DNA of 64,000 nt from Streptomyces sp. SCSIO 30461 (GTDB lineage: Bacteria > Actinomycetota > Actinomycetes > Streptomycetales > Streptomycetaceae), in the NCBI RefSeq assembly GCF_037023745.1, contig NZ_CP146101.1, forward strand, positions 4,828,001-4,892,000. Direction: 5' to 3'. The notes beneath the pieces were generated by a model that was given only the letters and a program-made list of their open reading frames with translations, was not told the origin of the DNA and made no database searches. The first letter of the stretch is position 1; each line of letters begins with the position of its first letter. Below are positions 26,070 to 37,738 of this stretch, piece after piece. Both the position numbers and the translations under genes were made by a program.

Positions 26070-27056
26070 ATGGCCTTGTCCCAGCATGACTTACTCCGGC
26101 TGATGGAGTCACTGCGTACGGCGGACGGAATCGAGTTGATCAGGGTCCTGGCCCAGCGGATCCTGCAGGAACTCATCGAGGCCGAGGCCACCGCCCACAT
26201 CGGCGCGGAGCCCGGCGAGCACGCCGACACCCGTACGACCTGGCGCAACGGTCACCGCGACAAAGTACTGACCACGCAGGCCGGGGACCTGGACCTGGCG
26301 ATCCCCAAGGTCCGCACCGGCACCTTCTTCCCCAGCCTGCTCGAACGCCGCCGCCGCATCGACCAGGCCCTCTACGCCGTCATCGTCGAGGCATACGTCC
26401 ACGGAGTGTCCACCCGCAGCGTCGACGACCTGGTCAGGGCCCTGGGTGCTGACAGCGGCATCTCCAAAAGCGAGGTGTCCCGGCTCTGCGCCGGGCTGGA
26501 CGCCGAACTCACCGCCTTCCGCACCCGGCCGCTGGATCACACCCGTTTCCCCTACATCTACCTGGACGCGACGTACTGCAAGGCCCGCGTGAACCATCAG
26601 ATCGTGTCCCAGGCCGTAGTCATCGCCACCGGCATCACCGAGGACGGCGGACGCGAAGTGCTGGGCCTGATGGTCGGCGACAGCGAGACCGAGGCGTTCT
26701 GGAGCGAGTTCCTGCGCTCCCTGCGCGAGCGCGGTCTGTCCGGGGTCCGCCTGGTCATCGCCGACCACCACAGCGGTCTGGTCAAGGCCGTGCGCAAGGT
26801 CATGCTCGGCGCCGGCTACCAAAGATGCCGCGTTCACTTCCCGCGCAACGTCTTCGCGATGATCCCGAAGGACTCCGCGGAAATGGTGGCCGCGACCATC
26901 CGCACGACCTTCGCCCAGCCCGACGCCGCAGCCGTCCGGGCCCAGCTCGACACCGTCGCCGACATGCTCGGCCGCTACCTCCCCGAAGGCAGCATGGACA
27001 AGATCTACCCCAACAACGACCAGATCGGTCCGGCTACACCACCACAGTGGACATGA
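26070..27056 (+). pseudogene. IS256-family transposase copy 1, C-terminus lost
   Basis: Frame of 328 aa from ATG 26070 (GAGAGAGGTGACACG ahead). It has TWRNGHRDKVLTTQAGDLDL, PKVRTGTFFPSLLERRRRID, the first Asp in YIYLDATYCKARVNHQ, the second in LVIADHHSGLVKAV, and RCRVHFPRNVFAMIPKDSAE. IS256 transposases are ~400-420 aa. The final segment with the catalytic Glu (family WxxxxSTNPLERLNKE) is missing and the frame ends RYLPEGSMDKIYPNNDQIG. So it cannot transpose by itself. The element's left end is at ~25979. Confidence 0.85.
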
Positions 27057-30697: not shown

Positions 30698-30880
30698 ATG
30701 GGCCCCATCGCAGTCATGCACGCGGACGCCGGAGCGGACTGCGAGTCCCCCACGGCCGTGCCGGACGGCTCGATCCAGGCAGTCCGCCAGGCCCTCGACA
30801 CCGCCGGACACCGCGACGTCGGCGTGAACCCCAACCTGGCCATTCACACGTCGCCGTACGGGCCGTTCAAGACGCGGTGT
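30698..30880 (+). pseudogene. hemB: Porphobilinogen synthase (HemB) fragment
   Basis: Reads HADAGADCESPTAVPDGSI, then QAVRQALDTAGHRDVGVNPN and SPYGPFKTR. HemB has 'A-x-A-G-A-D-x-V-A-P-S-x-M-x-D-G-x-V-x-x-I-R-x-x-L-D-x-x-G' followed by 'YGPFR'. Only ~60 residues survive, cut at 30880 by the IS256 copy. HemB makes porphobilinogen; this is a relic. Confidence 0.55.
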
Positions 30881-30884
30881 CGAG

Positions 30885-31545
30885 CCGGGCCGGACGGCTG
30901 CGGCGTCGGGCTGGGCGAAGAGCGTGCGGATGGTCGCGGCCACCATCTCCGCCGAGCCCTTCGGGATCATCGCGAAGACGCTGCGCAGGAAGTGCACGCG
31001 GCATCTTTGGTGGCCGGCGCCGAGCATGACCTTGCGCACGGCCTTGACCAGGCCCAAGTGGTGGTCGGCGATGACCAGGCGGACCCCGGACAGACCGCGC
31101 TCGCGCAGGGAGCGCAGGAACTCGCTCCAGAACGCCTCGGTCTCGCTGTCGCCGACCATCAGGCCCAGCACTTCGCGCCCGCCGTCCTCGGTGATGCCGG
31201 TGGCGATGACCACGGGCCGGGTCCAGGTCCCCGGCCTGCGGGGTCGGCACTCTGTCGCGGTGACCGCTGCGCCAGGTCGTACGGCTCTCGGCATGCTCGC
31301 CGGGCTCGGCGCCGATGTGAGCGGTGGGCTCGGCCTCGATGAGTTCCTGCAGGATCCGCCGGGCCGGGACCCTGATCGACTCGATTCCGTCCGCCGTACG
31401 CAGTGACTCCATCAGCCGGAGTAAGTCATGCCGGGACAAGGCCATCGCGCGACCTCTCTCAACGAGTTTTCCTACTCGGAGAGTTGCGCGATGGCCGCCT
31501 CATGACCAGCGGCTATGCCGAGATCGCCGCTACACTAATTGCAGA
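30885..31545 (-). pseudogene. IS256-family element copy 2, internally deleted
   Basis: Minus-strand N-terminus from ATG 31445 (MALSRHDLLRLMESLRTADG, IGAEPGEHAESRTTWRSGHR) jumps at ~31215-31225, with a frame change, to VVIATGITEDGGREVLGLMV and LRERGLSGVRLVIADHHLGL. It ends at FAQPDAAAVR next to the hemB fragment. The deletion removes the first catalytic Asp and the 3' part is also missing. Close to copy 1 (25.98-27.05 kb) in DNA sequence, in opposite orientation. The end GTGTAGC-GCGATCT lies at ~31535. Confidence 0.8.
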
Positions 31546-31556
31546 GATTTGCAATT
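31537..31556. promoter_or_regulatory. 20-bp palindrome P1 upstream of ArsR-SulP module A
   Basis: AATTGCAGA-GA-TTTGCAATT, arms matching 7 of 9. AT-rich against a high-GC background and about 90 bp upstream of the ArsR start. Same design as three other sites (33979, 35386, 37719). It directly abuts the end of IS256 copy 2. Confidence 0.65.
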
Positions 31557-31648
31557 TGCTACATTCTCATATTATTGAGTTCCCAGGTCGCGTGTGATGA
31601 TGCGGCCCGTGCTGGGGGTGCGGGGCGACGGGAAGGGTCGGAGGCGGG

Positions 31649-31978
31649 ATGTCAGTTCCGCTGCGGCAGGCGAAGATCCACTTCTTTCGAATGCTGCCGC
31701 GCGTGGTGTGCAGAGGTGTGCTGGTGCTGTTGGAGGAGGATTCGGTGCGGGATCTGCTGGGGGCGATCGAGGTGGAGTCGTCGGTGCTGTCGCAGTGGCT
31801 GGCGGTGCTGCGGCGGTGGGTGGTCAGGTCCGCCGGGGACGGCTCGGGGGTGGTGTGCGAGCTGCCCGGGGGTGCTGTGCGGCAATCGCTGCCCGGGGCC
31901 CGGCGGGTCCTGACAGAGGTGCGTGCCGAGCGGGCGGAGTTGCTCGGTGTTGTGCGGGGGAGCGGGGTCGTGTCGTGA
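31649..31978 (+). CDS. ArsR-like winged-helix protein, divergent (module A)
   Basis: A 109-aa protein from ATG 31649 behind GGAGGCGGG. It is clearly a relative of the 113-aa ArsR at 35490 (shared MSVPL-QAK--FFRML, RDLL-AIEVE---LSQ-LAVLRR), but positions conserved there are changed: GHPVRIRVLELL became PRVVCRGVLVLL and the wing STVVYAL became SGVVCELP. No metal-binding ELCVCDL motif. It may have lost DNA binding or changed specificity. Its GTGA stop overlaps the SulP start, so the two are co-translated. Confidence 0.65.
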   Translation: MSVPLRQAKIHFFRMLPRVVCRGVLVLLEEDSVRDLLGAIEVESSVLSQWLAVLRRWVVRSAGDGSGVVCELPGGAVRQSLPGARRVLTEVRAERAELLGVVRGSGVVS

Positions 31979-33714
31979 GCCAGGTCCTGCTGCGGGTTCG
32001 GGCTGTGCTGCCGACCCGGGCTGACTACCAGGTGATGGCGCGGGATCCGCGCCGGGATCTGCTGGCGGGGTTGACGGTGGCGATTGTCGCCTTGCCGCTG
32101 GCGCTCGGGTTCGGTGTCTCGTCGGGGCTGGGGGCGGAGGCGGGGCTGGCGACCGCGGTGGTGGCGGGCGCGCTGGCGGCGCTGCTGGGCGGTTCGAACC
32201 TTCAGGTGTCGGGGCCGACTGGGGCGATGACCGTCGTGCTGGTCCCGATCGTTGCCGAGTACGGTCCGGGCGGGGTGCTTACGGTCGGGCTGATGGCTGG
32301 CGTGCTGCTGATCGGCTTGGCGCTGGTGAAGGCCGGCCGGTACATGGCGTATGTGCCGGCCCCGGTGGTGGAGGGGTTCACCCTCGGCATTGCGTGCGTG
32401 ATCGGTCTGCAGCAGTTCCCGAATGCGCTGGGAGTGGACAAGCCGGAGGGCGAGAAGGTCCTGGCGGTGGCGTGGCGGTCAGTGGTGGCGTTCACTGAGG
32501 CGCCGAACTGGATGGCGCTTGGCCTCTCTGTCGGGGTGGCGGTGGTGATGCTGGTCGGGGCGCGGTGGCGGCCGACGGTCCCGTTCTCGATCGTCGCGGT
32601 GATCGCGGCGACGATCGTGGTGGAGGTTTTCCACCTTCAGGAGGTGGCGCCGATCGGTGCGCTGCCGTCGGGTCTGCCCGCGCCGTCGCTTGGCTTCCTC
32701 GACGTCTCTGCGCTGGGGTCGCTGCTGGGCCCGGCGGTGGCGGTGGCCGCTTTGGCCGCGCTGGAGTCGCTGCTGTCGGCGACTGTCGCGGACGGCATGA
32801 CGGTCGGCCAGAGGCATGATCCGGACCGGGAGCTGTTCGGGCAGGGGGTGGCGAACCTTGCCGCCCCGCTGTTCGGCGGGGTGCCGGCGACCGCGGCGAT
32901 AGCGAGGACGGCGGTCAACGTACGTACCGGTGCCTCTTCCCGGCTCGCAGCCTTGACCCACGCGGTGATCCTTGGCGTGATCGTGTTCGCCGCCGCCCCG
33001 CTGGTGTCGCGGATCCCACTGGCTGCATTGGCCGGGGTGCTGCTGGCGACCGCAGTCCGGATGGTGGAGGTCGGGTCGCTGAGAGCCATGGCCCGGGCGA
33101 CCCGGTCCGACGCGGCCGTCTTGGTGCTGACGGCCGCCGCGACGCTGGCCCTGGACCTGGTCTACGCGGTGATGATCGGCCTGGTGGTGGCCGGGGCGCT
33201 GGCGCTACGCGCGGTCGGACTCCAAGCCCGTCTCGATCAGGTCGACTTCCGCCCGGATCTGCCCGGGGAACACAGCGACGAGGAACACGCCCTGCTCACC
33301 GAACACATCGTCGCCTACCGCATCGATGGCCCGGTCTTCTTCGCCGGCGCGCACCGGTTCCTGCTGGAGCTATCAGAGGTTGCCGACGTGCGAGTGGTGA
33401 TCCTGCGCATGTCGCGGGTCACCACGATGGACGCCACCGGCGCCTTGGTCCTGAAGGACGTGGTGGAGAAGCTGCACCGGCGGGGGGTCACCGTGCTGGC
33501 CTCCGGGATCCGGCCCGGCCAGCGCCAGGTCCTTGCTTCGGTCGGGGCCCTGGAACTGCTGCAGCCGGACGGTCAGGAATATGCAACCACCCCGGAGGCG
33601 ATCACCGCGGCGCGGAAACGCCTCGAACAGGCCGGACTCGTCCCGCACCGCCGCCACGTGCACCTGCACCGGGCTCGGAAGGGGCTCCGAGGGCCCTTCC
33701 CGCCGAGCGGATGA
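31975..33714 (+). CDS. SulP-family anion permease with STAS domain (module A)
   Basis: A 579-aa protein from GTG 31975. N-terminal helices with DLLAGLTVAIVALPLALGFG and the family signature VSGPTGAMTVVLVPIV; then VVEGFTLGIACVIGLQQFPN, a core with AALESLLSATVADGMTVGQR and ELFGQGVANLAAPLFGGVPA-TAAIART, about 10-14 helices in all. A C-terminal STAS domain (~residues 440-560: DGPVFFAGAHRFLLELSEV, VVILRMSRVTTMDATGALVL) is complete. SulP proteins take up sulfate, bicarbonate or similar anions; the substrate is not readable here, and no carbonic anhydrase or sulfur enzyme is adjacent. Coupled to the ArsR-like gene. Confidence 0.88.
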   Translation: MSQVLLRVRAVLPTRADYQVMARDPRRDLLAGLTVAIVALPLALGFGVSSGLGAEAGLATAVVAGALAALLGGSNLQVSGPTGAMTVVLVPIVAEYGPGGVLTVGLMAGVLLIGLALVKAGRYMAYVPAPVVEGFTLGIACVIGLQQFPNALGVDKPEGEKVLAVAWRSVVAFTEAPNWMALGLSVGVAVVMLVGARWRPTVPFSIVAVIAATIVVEVFHLQEVAPIGALPSGLPAPSLGFLDVSALGSLLGPAVAVAALAALESLLSATVADGMTVGQRHDPDRELFGQGVANLAAPLFGGVPATAAIARTAVNVRTGASSRLAALTHAVILGVIVFAAAPLVSRIPLAALAGVLLATAVRMVEVGSLRAMARATRSDAAVLVLTAAATLALDLVYAVMIGLVVAGALALRAVGLQARLDQVDFRPDLPGEHSDEEHALLTEHIVAYRIDGPVFFAGAHRFLLELSEVADVRVVILRMSRVTTMDATGALVLKDVVEKLHRRGVTVLASGIRPGQRQVLASVGALELLQPDGQEYATTPEAITAARKRLEQAGLVPHRRHVHLHRARKGLRGPFPPSG

Positions 33715-33846
33715 TGCTGGAGATCCCCCACGAGTCCTGCCAACTCCTCGATGACGCTGCCGGCAGCCGCGTCGTTTCCTTCACCCTCAGAGCCCTGAAT
33801 GCACGGCGATCAGACCCGGCCATTTGCGCCCCGGGCGCCAGCCCTG

Positions 33847-33942
33847 CGACCCCAAAACCGGGTCCCTGCGGGACACGCCGGTGCGGCGGCCGTGATGGCC
33901 GCCGCACGCGGTGTCATCCGCTCGGACCCGGTTTTGGGGTCG
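33847..33942. repeat. 96-bp nested hairpin between convergent genes
   Basis: Outer arms of 19 bp (CGACCCCAAAACCGGGTCC and its exact complement at 33924-33942) enclose GACACGCC/GCGGTGTC and an inner perfect 11-bp stem GTGCGGCGGCC / GGCCGCCGCAC with loop GTGAT. It lies between convergent SulP and roadblock genes, so it could serve as a two-way terminator. The length and the outer A/T-bearing arms are also like a small non-autonomous element. Confidence 0.6.
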
Positions 33943-33978
33943 TGTACATGAGCAACTGCCCTGATTCGTCATGTGACT

Positions 33979-33998
33979 AATTGAAGAAATCTTCAATT
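33979..33998. promoter_or_regulatory. 20-bp palindrome P2 (orphan)
   Basis: AATTGAAGA-AA-TCTTCAATT, perfect 9-bp arms with the 2-bp spacer of P1/P3/P4 but A in place of C at arm position 6. No gene starts beside it: SulP ends on the left and the roadblock gene ends at 34035 on the right. Probably the operator of a lost gene. Confidence 0.6.
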
Positions 33999-34034
33999 AT
34001 CGGGCATGCTGCGTCCCGGGATACGGGTCAGGCG

Positions 34035-34409
34035 CTACAGCTCCAGGTGAGCTTCGATGCGGCTGAGCTGGTGCCGGGCCATGGCCAGGTTGGACTTCGC
34101 CTTGTCCAGGACAAGGTAGAGGAACAGCCCGTCGCCGCTGCGGCCTTTGAGCAGCCGGATGAGGTGGTACTGACTGCTGAGCGTGATCAGCACGTCGACG
34201 ATCTCGTCGTCGAGGCCGAGGAGTTCCATGGTGCGGGCCTTGGCGCGGATCACATCGGTGTTACCCGCAGCAGCCACCGTCAGGTCGAGATCCTTGCTAC
34301 CGCCGATCGTGCCCAGTGCCATCCCGCTGGTGTAGTCGACGAGGGCGGCCCCCAGGCTGCCCTCGATCGATGTCACGGTCTCCTTGAGAGAGACTTCTAT
34401 GTTGGCCAT
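34035..34409 (-). CDS. Roadblock/LC7-like protein
   Basis: A 124-aa protein from ATG 34409 (MANIEVSLKETVTSIEGSLG); a longer frame adds a non-conserved start. The fold signature is DYTSGMALGTIGGSKDLDLT, then ILITLSSQYHLIRLL-type strands (VLITLSSQYHLIRLLKG, GLFLYLVLDKAKSNLAMARH), typical of MglB/roadblock dimers that act on small GTPases. No GTPase gene is adjacent. A second roadblock pair lies at 41.0-41.8 kb. Role: probable regulatory scaffold, unproven. Confidence 0.7.
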   Translation of the reverse strand: MANIEVSLKETVTSIEGSLGAALVDYTSGMALGTIGGSKDLDLTVAAAGNTDVIRAKARTMELLGLDDEIVDVLITLSSQYHLIRLLKGRSGDGLFLYLVLDKAKSNLAMARHQLSRIEAHLEL

Positions 34410-34740
34410 AGCCTGCGTCCTCACTCTTCGCCAGGGCACCTGCGCTCTGCACGTGCCCGCCGATTGGGTGACGGTGAAGTTACGCATCGTGTGCGAGGCG
34501 GGTGGGAGAATCCCGGTAGCAGGTGAGGGCTCATGCGGATCGCGCTACAGTACGCGCCCGCGGGCGCCCGAGTCTCGGTGACCCCTGCCTGAGCGTGGCG
34601 GATGCGCCCCGAGGCTGCCACCTGGGGGAGGCGGTGACCAGCGCACGGGCGGGTGGCTCCGGCAGGACGGAAGACGGTGTTGCCGGAGACGGAGCGCGAG
34701 ACCCGTCTGCACCCGTCGCTCGCGAAGATCGAACAAGCAC

Positions 34741-35290
34741 TTGACGGTGTGCAACACGCGAAGCCCGCATCATCGCTCTGCTCGGCGGACGTTCGAGGAA
34801 CCAGCTCTCCAGGACACGCAGGCTTCTGGAGCGGAGACGGCAGACAGCGGACATGTCGACACGCTGCTGTCTCAAGCATGGTCCGACGCTGGTGCACGGG
34901 CTTGCGGCGTCTACGTCGTCTCGCAGGACGGGCAGTCACTCGGGCTGATGCTGGTCACAGGGGTACCCTGCATGTTGCCGTGCCATGGGCACGCATCCCC
35001 ATCAGCGCACCCTTGCCGGCCACCGACGCCGTGCGGCAGCAGCGGCGGGCATGGGACGGCCCTCAGGGAGATCTGACGCTCCGATACCCGCGGGTGGAGC
35101 TCGCGCTACTGCCCTACGAGTTCGCACTCGCTGCCGCGCCGATCTCCGCCACCGCCCGGACCTGGGGCGCCCTGTGGCTGCCGGCCGGGATCCCGCTCGA
35201 TCAAGCCCTCGGCAGGTACAAGGCAGGCGATTCTTGCCACCTCGGACTGCATGGCGGTGCGTTTCGGAACGCAGCCGCCCGTGGCGTCCC
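34741..35290 (+). pseudogene. Frameshifted GAF-domain (SpoIIE-phosphatase type) fragment
   Basis: One frame reads DTLLSQAWSDAGARACGVYV then VSQDGQSLGLMLVTGVP. At ~34970 the sense moves to another frame: VAVPWARIPISAPLPATDAV, RRAWDGPQGDLTLRYPRVEL, LPYEFALAAAPISATARTWG and ALWLPAGIPLDQ. Together these make one GAF domain of the type found in Streptomyces SpoIIE-like phosphatases (family 'APWARVPLAAPIPVADAVRE...RYP...LPYPFALAAAPI'). The phosphatase part is absent and the start is not identifiable. Confidence 0.6.
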
Positions 35291-35385
35291 GTTGCTCCCG
35301 GTTTCGGAGCCCCGGTGCGTGTAGCGGAACCTCTCGACCTCGCCTGGATGCAGGACGAACGAGCGGCCGCACACCCAGGACGGAC

Positions 35386-35405
35386 GATTGCGGAATTCTG
35401 CAATT
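35386..35405. promoter_or_regulatory. 20-bp palindrome P3 upstream of ArsR-SulP module B
   Basis: GATTGCGGA-AT-TCTGCAATT; 7 of 9 arm positions match, centred 94 bp before the ArsR start. Same spacing relation to its gene as P1 in module A. Confidence 0.65.
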
Positions 35406-35489
35406 CCATACATCATGGAGGTGTCTGCGGGTGCCAGCCGGATGGGACGCCTGGCCATCTGAGGCGAATGAGGAGAAAGGGGCCTCACG

Positions 35490-35831
35490 GTGTCGGTTCC
35501 GCTCTATCAGGCCAAGGCCGAGTTCTTCCGCATGCTCGGTCATCCGGTGCGTATCCGAGTGCTGGAACTGCTGCAGGACGGGCCGATGCCGGTGCGGGAT
35601 CTGCTGGCGGCGATCGAAGTGGAGCCGCCGGCACTGTCGCAGCAGCTGGCCGTGCTGCGACGCTCGGGGATCGTCACTTCGGCCAGGGAGGGCTCAACGG
35701 TGGTCTACGCGCTGGCGGGCGGCGATGTGGCGGATCTGCTGCGGGCAGCACGGCGGATCCTCACCGTAATGCTGGCCGGTCAGAACAAACTGCTGACGGA
35801 GCTGCAGGAATCCGAGGTCGCCGCGCGGTGA
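35490..35831 (+). CDS. ArsR-family transcriptional regulator (module B)
   Basis: A 113-aa protein from ATG 35490. Complete winged helix: FFRMLGHPVRIRVLELLQDG, MPVRDLLAAIEVEPPALSQQ, LAVLRRSGIVTSAREGSTVV (recognition helix and wing) and a C-terminal dimer helix (ADLLRAARRILTVMLAGQNK). It has no Cys at all, so it is neither a classical metal sensor nor a persulfide switch; the signal must be something else. Candidate binder of the AATTGCAGA palindromes. GTGA overlap with the truncated SulP gene that follows. Confidence 0.82.
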   Translation: MSVPLYQAKAEFFRMLGHPVRIRVLELLQDGPMPVRDLLAAIEVEPPALSQQLAVLRRSGIVTSAREGSTVVYALAGGDVADLLRAARRILTVMLAGQNKLLTELQESEVAAR

Positions 35832-36223
35832 ACAGGCTGACACCCCTGCCCTGGGACCCGGTGCCCGGCCTGCTACCCGCGCGCGGTCTCGCAAGCACGC
35901 AACCGATTCCACCCCGCGATCCGCAGGCCGGGCTGGTGCTTGTGGCGCTGCCCTTCGCGCTCGACTTCAGGCAGTCGCCCGGGTTCGGAGCTGAAGCGGG
36001 CGGGGCAACTGCAGTCCTGGCCGGTGCGCTCGCGGAGCCGTTCGGCAGTTCGGATCTCCAAGCGGCGGGCCCGGTCGGGGCGATGACCGCGGCCCTCGCC
36101 CCGACCGTCCCCAAGTACGGCCCGGGCGGCGCAACGCCTCTCGGCCAACCGCGCCGTGTGAATCCGGGGAGCCAGCTGAGCCGGGTACGGACCGGTTTCC
36201 AAATGGTGAACGGGAACCCGTGA
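35828..36223 (+). pseudogene. Truncated SulP permease (module B)
   Basis: From GTG 35828 the frame gives ~131 aa: LVLVALPFALDFRQSPGFGA, TAVLAGALAEPFGSSDLQAA and GPVGAMTAALAPTVPKYGPG line up with module A (VAIVALPLALGFGVSSGLGA, LGGSNLQVSGPTGAMTVVLV). It then breaks at GGATPLGQPRRVNPG. Only the first 2-3 helices remain, with damaged motifs (e.g. ALDFRQS), and no STAS domain. Its start is still coupled to the intact ArsR. Confidence 0.75.
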
Positions 36224-36224
36224 G

Positions 36225-36647
36225 ATGTTCTCTGCGATCAGCGATCTGCCCTACCGCCACGTGCTGACGATGCCCGCTGTCGGCTCCGCAGTGCGGACAG
36301 CGCGCGAGACCACCGAACAACTACTGATGGAGTGGGGCATCAGCCGCCACCACCACGCCGTAGCGCCGGCGCTGCTCATCCTTGCCGAGCTGGTCACCAA
36401 CAGCGTGCGGCACGCCGCCGCCCTCTCACCCAACATCACAGTGATCTACGCCGGGGCCCCGGACACATTCGCGTTCGCAGTCCACGACCGCCACCCCTAC
36501 CAGCCAGCCTTGCTGCACGCCCATCCCACCCACCACGGCGGCCTGGCCACCGTCGTCGAGCTCACCCTCGGCCTCGGCGGCACCACCGTAGTCCGCGCAG
36601 ACGCCGACGGCCACGGCAAAGGAATCTGGATCACCCTCCCCTTGTAG
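36225..36647 (+). CDS. RsbW-like ATP-binding protein (HATPase_c_2)
   Basis: A 140-aa protein from ATG 36225. GHKL motifs: N-box ILAELVTNSVRHAA, G1 region AFAVHDRHPYQPALL, G2 HHGGLATVVELTLGL and a terminal strand GKGIWITLPL. Such stand-alone domains are abundant in Streptomyces and act as anti-sigma kinases or partners of anti-sigma antagonists. It begins 2 bp after the truncated SulP stop, so it is probably on the same transcript. The D-x-G-x-G motif is modified (HDRHP), so ATP binding needs proof. Confidence 0.75.
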   Translation: MFSAISDLPYRHVLTMPAVGSAVRTARETTEQLLMEWGISRHHHAVAPALLILAELVTNSVRHAAALSPNITVIYAGAPDTFAFAVHDRHPYQPALLHAHPTHHGGLATVVELTLGLGGTTVVRADADGHGKGIWITLPL

Positions 36648-36838
36648 GGCGAAGAGACGCATGACCATCACATGGCGCGTCAGAGAATCTTCAAGGGGCG
36701 TGTCGACCACGGCCTCCGCCAGCACGGGGTCAAGCCGGGATGAGCCCGCCACCCCCATTGCCGCGCCCCACGATCCGGCTTCCGCAGCGAGCAGCATCAC
36801 CGTGTCCGACACCACGGGGCGACCGCCTGCGCGGCGGG

Positions 36839-36976
36839 CTACTTCTGGGCGTGCTGGCCCACGTAGAACAGCAGCCACACAAAGCCGGCGAACACGTGCG
36901 TGCCGAAGATACAGAAGAACGCGCGCAGCGCGACGCCCTTCCCCTTCCACTCCTCGTCGCGACTCGCGCTACTCAC
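36839..36976 (-). CDS. 45-aa single-pass membrane protein (DUF6126-like)
   Basis: GTG 36976 overlaps the stop of the preceding small gene (GTGA). The product reads SASRDEEWKGKGVALRAFFC then FGTHVFAGFVWLLFYVGQHA and ends. This charged start and aromatic helix with FGTHVFA are typical of the DUF6126 micro-proteins of Streptomyces, function unknown. Confidence 0.65.
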   Translation of the reverse strand: MSSASRDEEWKGKGVALRAFFCIFGTHVFAGFVWLLFYVGQHAQK

Positions 36977-37143
36977 AATGGCTCCCTTCCTGCAGCCGGC
37001 CGGCCTGAGCACGGGGGACACGGCCGGACGTAGACCCGCACCCCATCCCGGTCGGCCTGCGCGACAGTCTCCGAGACGCGCCCAGCCGCCACCAGCGTCC
37101 GGGCCAGCGCACCGGGCACAGAGGCGTACCCGATCTCGTACAT
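36973..37143 (-). CDS. 56-aa hypothetical protein
   Basis: ATG 37143 follows GAAGAAGGAGTC, a strong ribosome site. Reads MYEIGYASVPGALARTLVAA, then GRVSETVAQADRDGVRVYVR and PCPPCSGRP with a CPPC pair. No family known to me. It overlaps the DUF6126-like gene and is probably part of a minus-strand unit beginning near 37.7 kb. Confidence 0.5.
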   Translation of the reverse strand: MYEIGYASVPGALARTLVAAGRVSETVAQADRDGVRVYVRPCPPCSGRPAAGREPL

Positions 37144-37289
37144 GACTCCTTCTTCCCGCGGGACGCAGACCTCTTGGCCACCCGGACAGCGACGTTCTTG
37201 TCCGGCCGGCCCCGGCGGCCCCGAACCGCCCGCTCCGCACGGGCGCGTGCCCGGCTGCCGAATCCGGATCCGGCATAGCGGGCGGCGAC

Positions 37290-37500
37290 CTAGGGCCGGG
37301 GTACGGCTGCCAGCACACTGCCGGCCCGCACCACAGTGAAAATGACGGCCGGGGACTGCTCGGCGTGCCGTACCACCTTGCTCACCGGCTCGCTGATCAT
37401 CAGAAACACCGCAGCTCCACTCCGTACGCTCGCACACCTCGGCCAGCACCAGCGGGCACCGTTCCACAGCGAAACTCCAACCGTGGTGTCGCACACCAGG
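37290..37500 (-). pseudogene. RsbW-like ATPase remnant
   Basis: Minus-strand frame with ISEPVSKVVRHAEQSPAVIF and TVVRAGSVLAAV; the N-box form 'SEP/LVxNVVRHA' is recognisable but here reads SKVVRHA, and the frame stops soon after. Adjacent sequence in other frames shows no G-boxes. A decayed relative of the gene at 36225. Confidence 0.4.
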
Positions 37501-37513
37501 CTTACGGAGCGGC

Positions 37514-37684
37514 TCACCCGGCGGCGTCCACATCTACGCCATGTTCGCGGGCCATACGCAGCGCATCATCAAGCTCGTCAGCCGCCTCAGCCTCCCCCAC
37601 GACATCACCGGCCTCCTGGGCAGCCGCCGCTCGAGCCCGCGCCGCCCACACACGCTCCCTCACCGCTTCCGCGAACCGGGACAC
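37514..37684 (-). CDS. 56-aa Ala/Glu-rich helical micro-protein
   Basis: GTG 37684 follows a GGGGGT stretch. Reads VSRFAEAVRERVWAARARAA, then AQEAGDVVGEAEAADELDDA and LRMAREHGVDV, one long amphipathic helix pair with an acidic middle. It starts 35 bp downstream of palindrome P4 and is first in the minus-strand micro-gene run to 36839. Similar short helical proteins occur in Streptomyces but I know no function. Confidence 0.5.
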   Translation of the reverse strand: MSRFAEAVRERVWAARARAAAAQEAGDVVGEAEAADELDDALRMAREHGVDVDAAG

Positions 37685-37718
37685 ACCGCCACCCCCACAC
37701 GCTCACATGAACCTTATG

Positions 37719-37738
37719 AATTGCAGAACTCTGCAATT
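37719..37738. promoter_or_regulatory. 20-bp palindrome P4 upstream of micro-gene run
   Basis: AATTGCAGA-AC-TCTGCAATT, perfect 9-bp arms. The best-conserved member of the P1-P4 set; located between the minus-strand 56-aa gene and the IS5 remnant. Confidence 0.7.

Follow-up and report, generated by a model that had tools for sequence, protein, structure and literature searches.

Auto-repressors of the ArsR type that act through a palindromic operator are a known kind of regulatory system, and the nearest described example to the protein considered here is Rv0081 of Mycobacterium tuberculosis (PDB 6jmi). According to PMC6177252, Rv0081 is a dimer and an auto-repressor that binds an inverted repeat in its own promoter, has no defined metal site and occupies more than 700 sites in chromatin immunoprecipitation (ChIP) experiments; the same source and PMC4757040 describe it as a hypoxia hub. 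The locus analysed here lies in a 64,000-nucleotide stretch of Streptomyces sp. SCSIO 30461 (contig NZ_CP146101.1, positions 4,828,001 to 4,892,000; hereafter the window, in whose coordinates positions are given unless stated otherwise). It carries four related 20-bp palindromes, P1 to P4, and an intact gene for an ArsR-type protein, ArsR-B, which is proposed to bind them.

Among 24 PDB sequences Rv0081 is the nearest to ArsR-B (E 1.9e-24, the next 1.6e-12), and by sequence comparison ArsR-B falls nearest the Rv0081-type clade. The two proteins are 45% identical, but the genome of the window holds four sites as against the more than 700 ChIP sites given for Rv0081 in PMC6177252, and ArsR-B is linked to genes for SulP, a HATPase and a small helical protein (SHP). 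As for hyc/Nuo-like genes, a trait sought for the Rv0081-type clade, no NuoB match occurs between 29800 and 38400 of the window; in relatives NuoB goes with a second ArsR paralogue, ArsR2 (18 of 80 loci). Genes of one family (f4) that are 71–93% identical to Rv0081 have a related palindrome upstream, found by scan in three of four cases and by eye in the fourth, with a T-rich right arm (TTTTCAA). The Rv0081 octamers given in PMC4757040 are too short to serve as an operator comparison.

Other systems are more distant. According to PMC3338718, Rv2034 of M. tuberculosis likewise represses itself as an ArsR-type dimer on a 20-bp palindrome of its own promoter; the half-site there reads CCGTAAGT, spaced by 4 bp, and has no relation to TTG(C/A). 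The persulfide sensors BigR and SqrR share the ArsR fold, yet ArsR-B scores only 49.6 bits against the BigR model (cut-off 155), and 100 of 100 aligned ArsR-B orthologues are free of cysteine. A pyridoxamine-oxidase-family gene is a predicted target of OsdR, of the OsdR/DevR dormancy system in Streptomyces and Mycobacterium, in PMC5069765, and a gene of the same family, possibly an orthologue, often follows SulP in the loci studied here; the OsdR box, however, is GC-rich. Exact boxes of the GGGNCCN4GGNCCC-like kind number 10 in 1.15 Mb, none of them within 600 bp upstream of a plus-strand ArsR gene and none in the window, and the main text of PMC5069765 mentions neither ArsR nor Rv0081. In the open-licence literature, no title or opening of an abstract among the matches listed describes this operator or a Streptomyces ArsR-SulP regulon, in agreement with the original prediction, made from the sequence of the window, in which no described Streptomyces regulon with this site was known. 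In the literature listed, the operator, its spread and the SulP-linked gene set were not found.

The four palindromes are very probably operators of a dimeric repressor of the ArsR/SmtB family from an Rv0081-related clade, namely ArsR-B and possibly also its distant paralogue ArsR-C, as judged from their rarity, spacing, conservation and linkage. They are placed as follows.

31537–31556, plus strand: P1, operator before ArsR-A/SulP, 1 mismatch to AATTGMAGANNTCTKCAATT
33979–33998, no strand assigned: P2, 0 mismatches to AATTGMAGANNTCTKCAATT, 36 bp beyond the stop of a roadblock-like gene
35386–35405, plus strand: P3, operator before ArsR-B, 2 mismatches to AATTGMAGANNTCTKCAATT
37719–37738, minus strand: P4, operator of a leftward small-gene operon, 0 mismatches to AATTGMAGANNTCTKCAATT

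A pattern scan recovered all four where they had been predicted, and shuffling the window 100 times gave a mean of 0.00 matches to AATTGMAGANNTCTKCAATT. Across the whole genome of 8,047,498 bp nothing else matches when 3 mismatches are allowed, and all four lie inside 6.2 kb; the reversed control pattern gave 0 matches over the same genome at the same tolerance. The looser pattern WTTGMN8KCAAW has 7 genomic sites, which are P1–P4 and three with unrelated centres (reversed control 3). P1 and P3 retain both half-sites with no more than 1 mismatch in these, and the ArsR start codons follow at 92 bp from the end of P1 and 84 bp from the end of P3, so that the near-equal distance noted earlier holds. 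The form first proposed, AATTG(C/A)AGA-N2-TCT(G/T)CAATT, is found at P1–P4, but the consensus in relatives is wider: AATTG(C/A)-N8-(G/T)CAATT. The form of P1, P3 and P4 is referred to below as C-type, and the P2-like form as A-type.

The spacing of the half-sites is sharply defined. In 1.07 Mb of related sequence, AATTG and CAATT occur at spacing 10 in 76 exact cases, 75 of them near an ArsR gene, while each of the remaining spacings between 4 and 16 gives 0 or 1. Seven other half-site pairs served as controls at the spacing of 10: six gave 0 exact and 0–1 near matches, and the remaining one, TTGAA-N10-TTCAA, gave 3 exact matches and 40 with up to 1 mismatch, nearly all of which are a coding stretch of ArsR2. 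As a background for the half-sites, 2685 random stretches of the window outside the locus yielded 0 matches when 2 mismatches were allowed and 17 when 3 were; random 440-bp stretches of 80 related loci, from which true sites had not been removed, match in 179, 186 and 201 of 4000 cases at 1, 2 and 3 mismatches. A best palindrome of 9–10 pairs is present in 49 of the 80 regions upstream of ArsR1, as the ArsR-B orthologues are called here, vs 20 of 400 random stretches. The spacing spectrum rules out random AT-rich palindromes, and repeats of a mobile element were rejected because the sites hold fixed places before orthologous genes in many species.

Linkage to ArsR genes was examined in loci fetched in several ways. 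The 80 loci mentioned above were fetched by ArsR alignment alone and are the best 80 of 578 confirmed stretches, which makes every one of them a close relative. On first scanning, 79 held a site with up to 4 mismatches, and 78 of these sites start 69–287 bases before the ArsR match; L061 has no site at this tolerance, and in L091 the best ArsR match is a second copy. With a test of half-sites and pairing, a site stands upstream of 85 of 88 ArsR1 genes in protein-fetched loci, and of 97 of 100 ArsR genes more than 70% identical to ArsR-B, a set that includes loci fetched by the site itself and in which 99 of 100 upstream regions are distinct. Across the genus the strict pattern occurs in 13 of 295 genomes, the present one included, with one site in each of the 12 others. 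Eleven of these 12 adjoin an ArsR gene 73–91% identical to ArsR-B, at 87–267 bp before its start, and the twelfth precedes SHP, a gene that lies between site and ArsR in other species. A search of 60 of the other 294 genomes for the exact form AATTGMN8KCAATT found 28 sites, spread over 25 genomes (reversed control 1). According to hand-compared coordinates, 19 lie within 300 bp of ArsR1 or ArsR2, 6 belong to the same cluster (0.4–5.3 kb from the ArsR match, in G007, G008, G012, G014, G015 and G025) and 3 are unlinked (G020, G027 and G030), the latter with poorly paired centres. Five of the six clusters (all except G008) were read: the operator precedes SulP in three, a STAS gene in one and PhnA in one, and in the three that precede SulP the ArsR1 gene is missing or a remnant. 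Sites were found in 23 of 34 genomes with ArsR vs 2 of 26 without it (p = 3e-6). The sites are thus linked to ArsR/SulP genes and not scattered at random, and this linkage, together with their conservation, supports the local ArsR-type regulon that had been proposed for P1–P4.

The same association extends beyond the genus. At E values no higher than 1e-25 the ArsR-B orthologue profile finds a match in 82 of 246 genomes and in 35 of the 103 genera by which the class was sampled, a count that takes in Rv0081-like paralogues. Among the best 30 loci, all 18 orthologues from four other families carry the site upstream, 17 with at most 2 half-site mismatches. As these are mostly of the TTGAAGA-NN-TCTTCAA kind, the A-type form is probably older, and the C-type would be typical of Streptomyces ArsR-SulP promoters.

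The genes around the four sites are listed below.

31649–31978, plus strand: ArsR-A, 109 amino acids (aa), probably decayed, 53% identical to ArsR-B
31975–33714, plus strand: SulP anion transporter carrying a STAS domain, 579 aa and intact, 85% identity to a relative over 573 aa
34035–34409, minus strand: roadblock/LC7-like gene (label by eye), 78% identity to the gene that precedes site and ArsR in L017
35490–35831, plus strand: ArsR-B, 113 aa, intact, Cys-free, proposed binder of P1–P4
35852–36145, plus strand: second SulP, a remnant reduced to roughly its first 100 residues, 57% identity to L069
36225–36647, plus strand: HATPase-like gene of module B, open frame, 77% identity to the HATPase gene of L047
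36839–36976, minus strand: small membrane protein of the DUF6126 family, 45 aa, whose start overlaps the stop of f17, family assigned on a relative
36973–37143, minus strand: f17, 56 aa, 42% identity to the small gene f17 of L023
37514–37684, minus strand: SHP (small helical protein) of 56 aa that starts with GTG 34 bp away from P4, 67% identity to the first post-site gene of L018

ArsR-B is a winged helix-turn-helix protein of the ArsR type (PF01022 at 46 bits, cut-off 22; NF033788 at 80.6 bits, cut-off 55). ArsR-A has no Pfam match at 1e-3, reaches 16.2 bits with NF033788 (cut-off 55) and has a changed recognition helix, LSQWL in place of LSQQL. The intact SulP matches PF00916 (243.4 bits) and PF01740 (52.6 bits), each above its cut-off; against the equivalog model of the BicA bicarbonate transporter it scores 261.2 bits, under the cut-off of 880. 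Its nearest solved chain is 6ki1 (BicA). The module-B HATPase lies slightly below the cut-off for PF13581 (27.1 bits vs 27.4), the roadblock-like gene has 0 matches in Pfam or NCBIfam, and the DUF6126 protein is 77% identical over 43 aa to a relative in L027. The functional parts are thus divided between the two modules, a decayed ArsR-A standing beside the intact SulP and an intact ArsR-B beside a truncated one.

Two assignments of the original prediction change with these genes. P4 had been placed 35 bp before a run of micro-genes, but no conserved family match is found to its right up to 38400, and its target is the leftward unit SHP/f17/DUF6126. P2, described as having no gene, sits in a context that is conserved in relatives: in L059 and L097 a site likewise follows a roadblock-like gene with no ArsR after it, and in L017 and at the second ArsR locus of the present genome an ArsR gene follows the site behind such a gene. 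ArsR-B had been named the best candidate binder, and it is intact, Cys-free and supported by linkage; it shares the candidacy, however, with ArsR-C, an intact paralogue at genome positions 7,876,082–7,876,411, about 3 Mb from P1–P4. The ArsR-C locus (genome 7876058–7876996; L109 6059–6997, minus strand) consists of a roadblock-like gene, a weak site, ATGTGAAAATTTCTTCAAGT, and then ArsR-C; the site is of the TGAAAA..TCTTCA type, with 6 of 10 positions paired.

The promoters suggest how such a protein could act. After the operator, 81 C-type sites share a conserved TA(G/C)ATGCTG, in which A at position 27 and T at position 31 both reach a frequency of 1.00; if TTGCnn at operator positions 3–8 is taken as the -35 element and positions 26–31 as the -10, the spacer measures 17 bp. 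A dimer would bind A(A)TTG(C/A)-N8-(G/T)CAA(T)T, each subunit taking one TTG half-site. At the promoters of ArsR-SulP pairs the -35 would be formed by the left half-site (TTGCnn), and a conserved GATGCT-like sequence 17 bp downstream would be the -10 element. Because the left half-site occupies the -35 position, the bound dimer would be expected to cover the -35 and the spacer, block RNA polymerase and give auto-repression. An intact ArsR thus most likely represses the promoters at P1–P4 by covering the -35 region, as far as promoter layout can indicate, and Rv0081, which according to PMC6177252 is a dimer that represses itself at an inverted repeat and lacks a defined metal site, fits this mechanism. 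Three units would be controlled: ArsR-A/SulP from P1, ArsR-B/SulP remnant/HATPase from P3 and SHP/f17/DUF6126, leftward, from P4; P2 would be an operator-promoter behind the roadblock-like gene that lacks its ArsR partner. Since ArsR-A is decayed and the module-B SulP truncated, matching operators would allow ArsR-B to act in trans, and it probably controls the intact SulP through P1. The signal is probably not a thiol switch, as aligned orthologues of the clade contain cysteine in 0 of 100 cases, which argues against thiol sensing; metal may be sensed through residues other than Cys.

In relatives the regulon has a recurrent content. The 80 loci contain SulP in 70 cases, HATPase in 61, PPOX in 47, ArsR2 in 44, STAS in 37 (the family match being below its cut-off) and NuoB in 18, and among the runs that begin with ArsR1, ArsR1-SulP alone (12) and ArsR1-SulP-PPOX-HATPase-STAS (11) are the most frequent. 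Of 156 sites in 99 loci and the window, 149 precede an identified target: ArsR1 (86), ArsR2 (31), SHP (19), PhnA (9), DUF6126 (2), SulP (1) or STAS (1). The other 7 fit no target class; P2 and two more of them are found directly behind a roadblock-like gene. Internal genes rarely have a site within 200 bp upstream (SulP 0 of 86, PPOX 0 of 67, NuoB 0 of 19, HATPase 1 of 93). Where ArsR2 has an operator of its own, this is often AATTGCTAATNTTAGCAATT. SHP-led units have a site upstream in 19 of 23 cases, and SHP is followed by ArsR or by f17 and DUF6126. The SHP family (56–87 aa) is a recurrent first gene after the operator (L018, L019, L050, L105 and the window), and the one member compared with Pfam and NCBIfam had 0 matches. 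Genes labelled by eye as carbonic anhydrases end within 80 bp of an SHP-unit site in 7 of 7 cases, and roadblock-like genes in 4 of 7.

Many relatives have HATPase and STAS genes after SulP (for instance L114 3051–4290), and the HATPase and STAS protein could possibly form a partner switch on the STAS domain of SulP. A broader proposal, speculative and on the whole unlikely, is that of an ancient actinobacterial regulon, in which a Cys-free ArsR clade and a TTG(A/C)-N8-(T/G)CAA operator, present in at least five families, would have kept together while the cargo changed. In Streptomyces it would then join SulP with a SpoIIAB-like HATPase and a STAS protein, the STAS domain of SulP being switched by the HATPase kinase, with carbonic anhydrase and Nuo/hyc-like genes as further members, in response to inorganic carbon or low oxygen. 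For a widespread ArsR group, an operator and a gene set are now ready for experiment; a single compact locus with four operators offers an easy starting point for identifying the signal of the clade, and the HATPase with STAS is a testable partner for the control of SulP.

Several results weigh against repression by the ArsR clade as a complete account. Three of the 100 ArsR1 genes fall below the threshold (L033 13922, L098 and L102), of which L098 and L102 hold a weaker ATGTGAAGA form; the exact site is absent from 11 of 34 ArsR-bearing genomes; ArsR2 genes have a site in only 30 of 52 cases; and among 15 more distant relatives the scan gives a palindrome in 6 and none in 9. The ArsR share of the 156 sites is inflated because most loci were chosen for holding ArsR. 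The -10 element is clear for the C-type only, A-type and ArsR2 sites being different, and A- and C-type proteins are not cleanly separated: position 48 holds Ser or Asn in 14 of 16 putative A-type binders, but Ser is also found in 22 of 77 C-type ones, so that this residue is not a code and the operator type cannot be read from the recognition helix. An exact AATTG-N10-CAATT at L024 10330–10349 stands 53 bp before a 403-aa gene, by eye resembling an aminotransferase, that is outside the usual gene set.

Some of these features could be explained otherwise. Operators before SHP, PhnA and DUF6126 genes would be expected if another protein, for example a global stress regulator, bound the palindromes and the ArsR proteins were mere neighbours, as would three loci in which operator and SulP are kept and ArsR1 is missing or a remnant, like ArsR-A (L110 5261–7190, L111 6993–7187, L112 6367–6550); yet the site precedes ArsR in five families, is nearly absent from genomes that lack ArsR (the 2 of 26 above) and is accompanied by no exact OsdR-type box in the window or within 600 bp upstream of plus-strand ArsR genes, and this explanation is regarded as very improbable. 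A division of labour in which P2-type sites are bound mainly by ArsR-C and ArsR-B is confined to C-type sites has more in its favour, though it is still the less likely arrangement: ArsR-C scores 213.6 bits against the ArsR-B orthologue profile and shares the context of P2, but its own site is poorly paired and no residue cleanly divides A- from C-type binders.

Repression itself could be questioned, as some proteins of the ArsR fold, such as HlyU, are activators or anti-repressors. Activation of its targets by ArsR-B would have a parallel in Rv0081 as a proposed activator of Rv3334, but the same source, PMC6177252, reports that Rv0081 represses its own promoter through the inverted repeat, and the operator overlies the putative -35 and spacer in the 81 C-type promoters, which makes activation improbable. 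There is similarly little to favour the four sites being decaying relics with no present function: transposase-like frames surround the locus, ArsR-A and the second SulP are degraded and P2 is without its ArsR gene, but P2 and P4 are perfect to the consensus, the half-sites of P1 and P3 are within 1 mismatch of it, and ArsR-B, the intact SulP and the HATPase have open frames and resemble the versions in relatives.

Two further features of the locus were seen by eye. To the left of P2, at 33847–33942, a 19-bp inverted repeat (CGACCCCAAAACCGGGTCC and its complement) surrounds a GC-rich hairpin, possibly a terminator or else a small RNA transcribed from the P2 promoter. Open reading frames at 26070–27056 (plus strand) and 30867–31445 (minus strand) have similar starts, MALS.HDLLRLMESLRTADGIE, and resemble IS256-type transposases; the latter frame is truncated and starts about 90 bp from P1.

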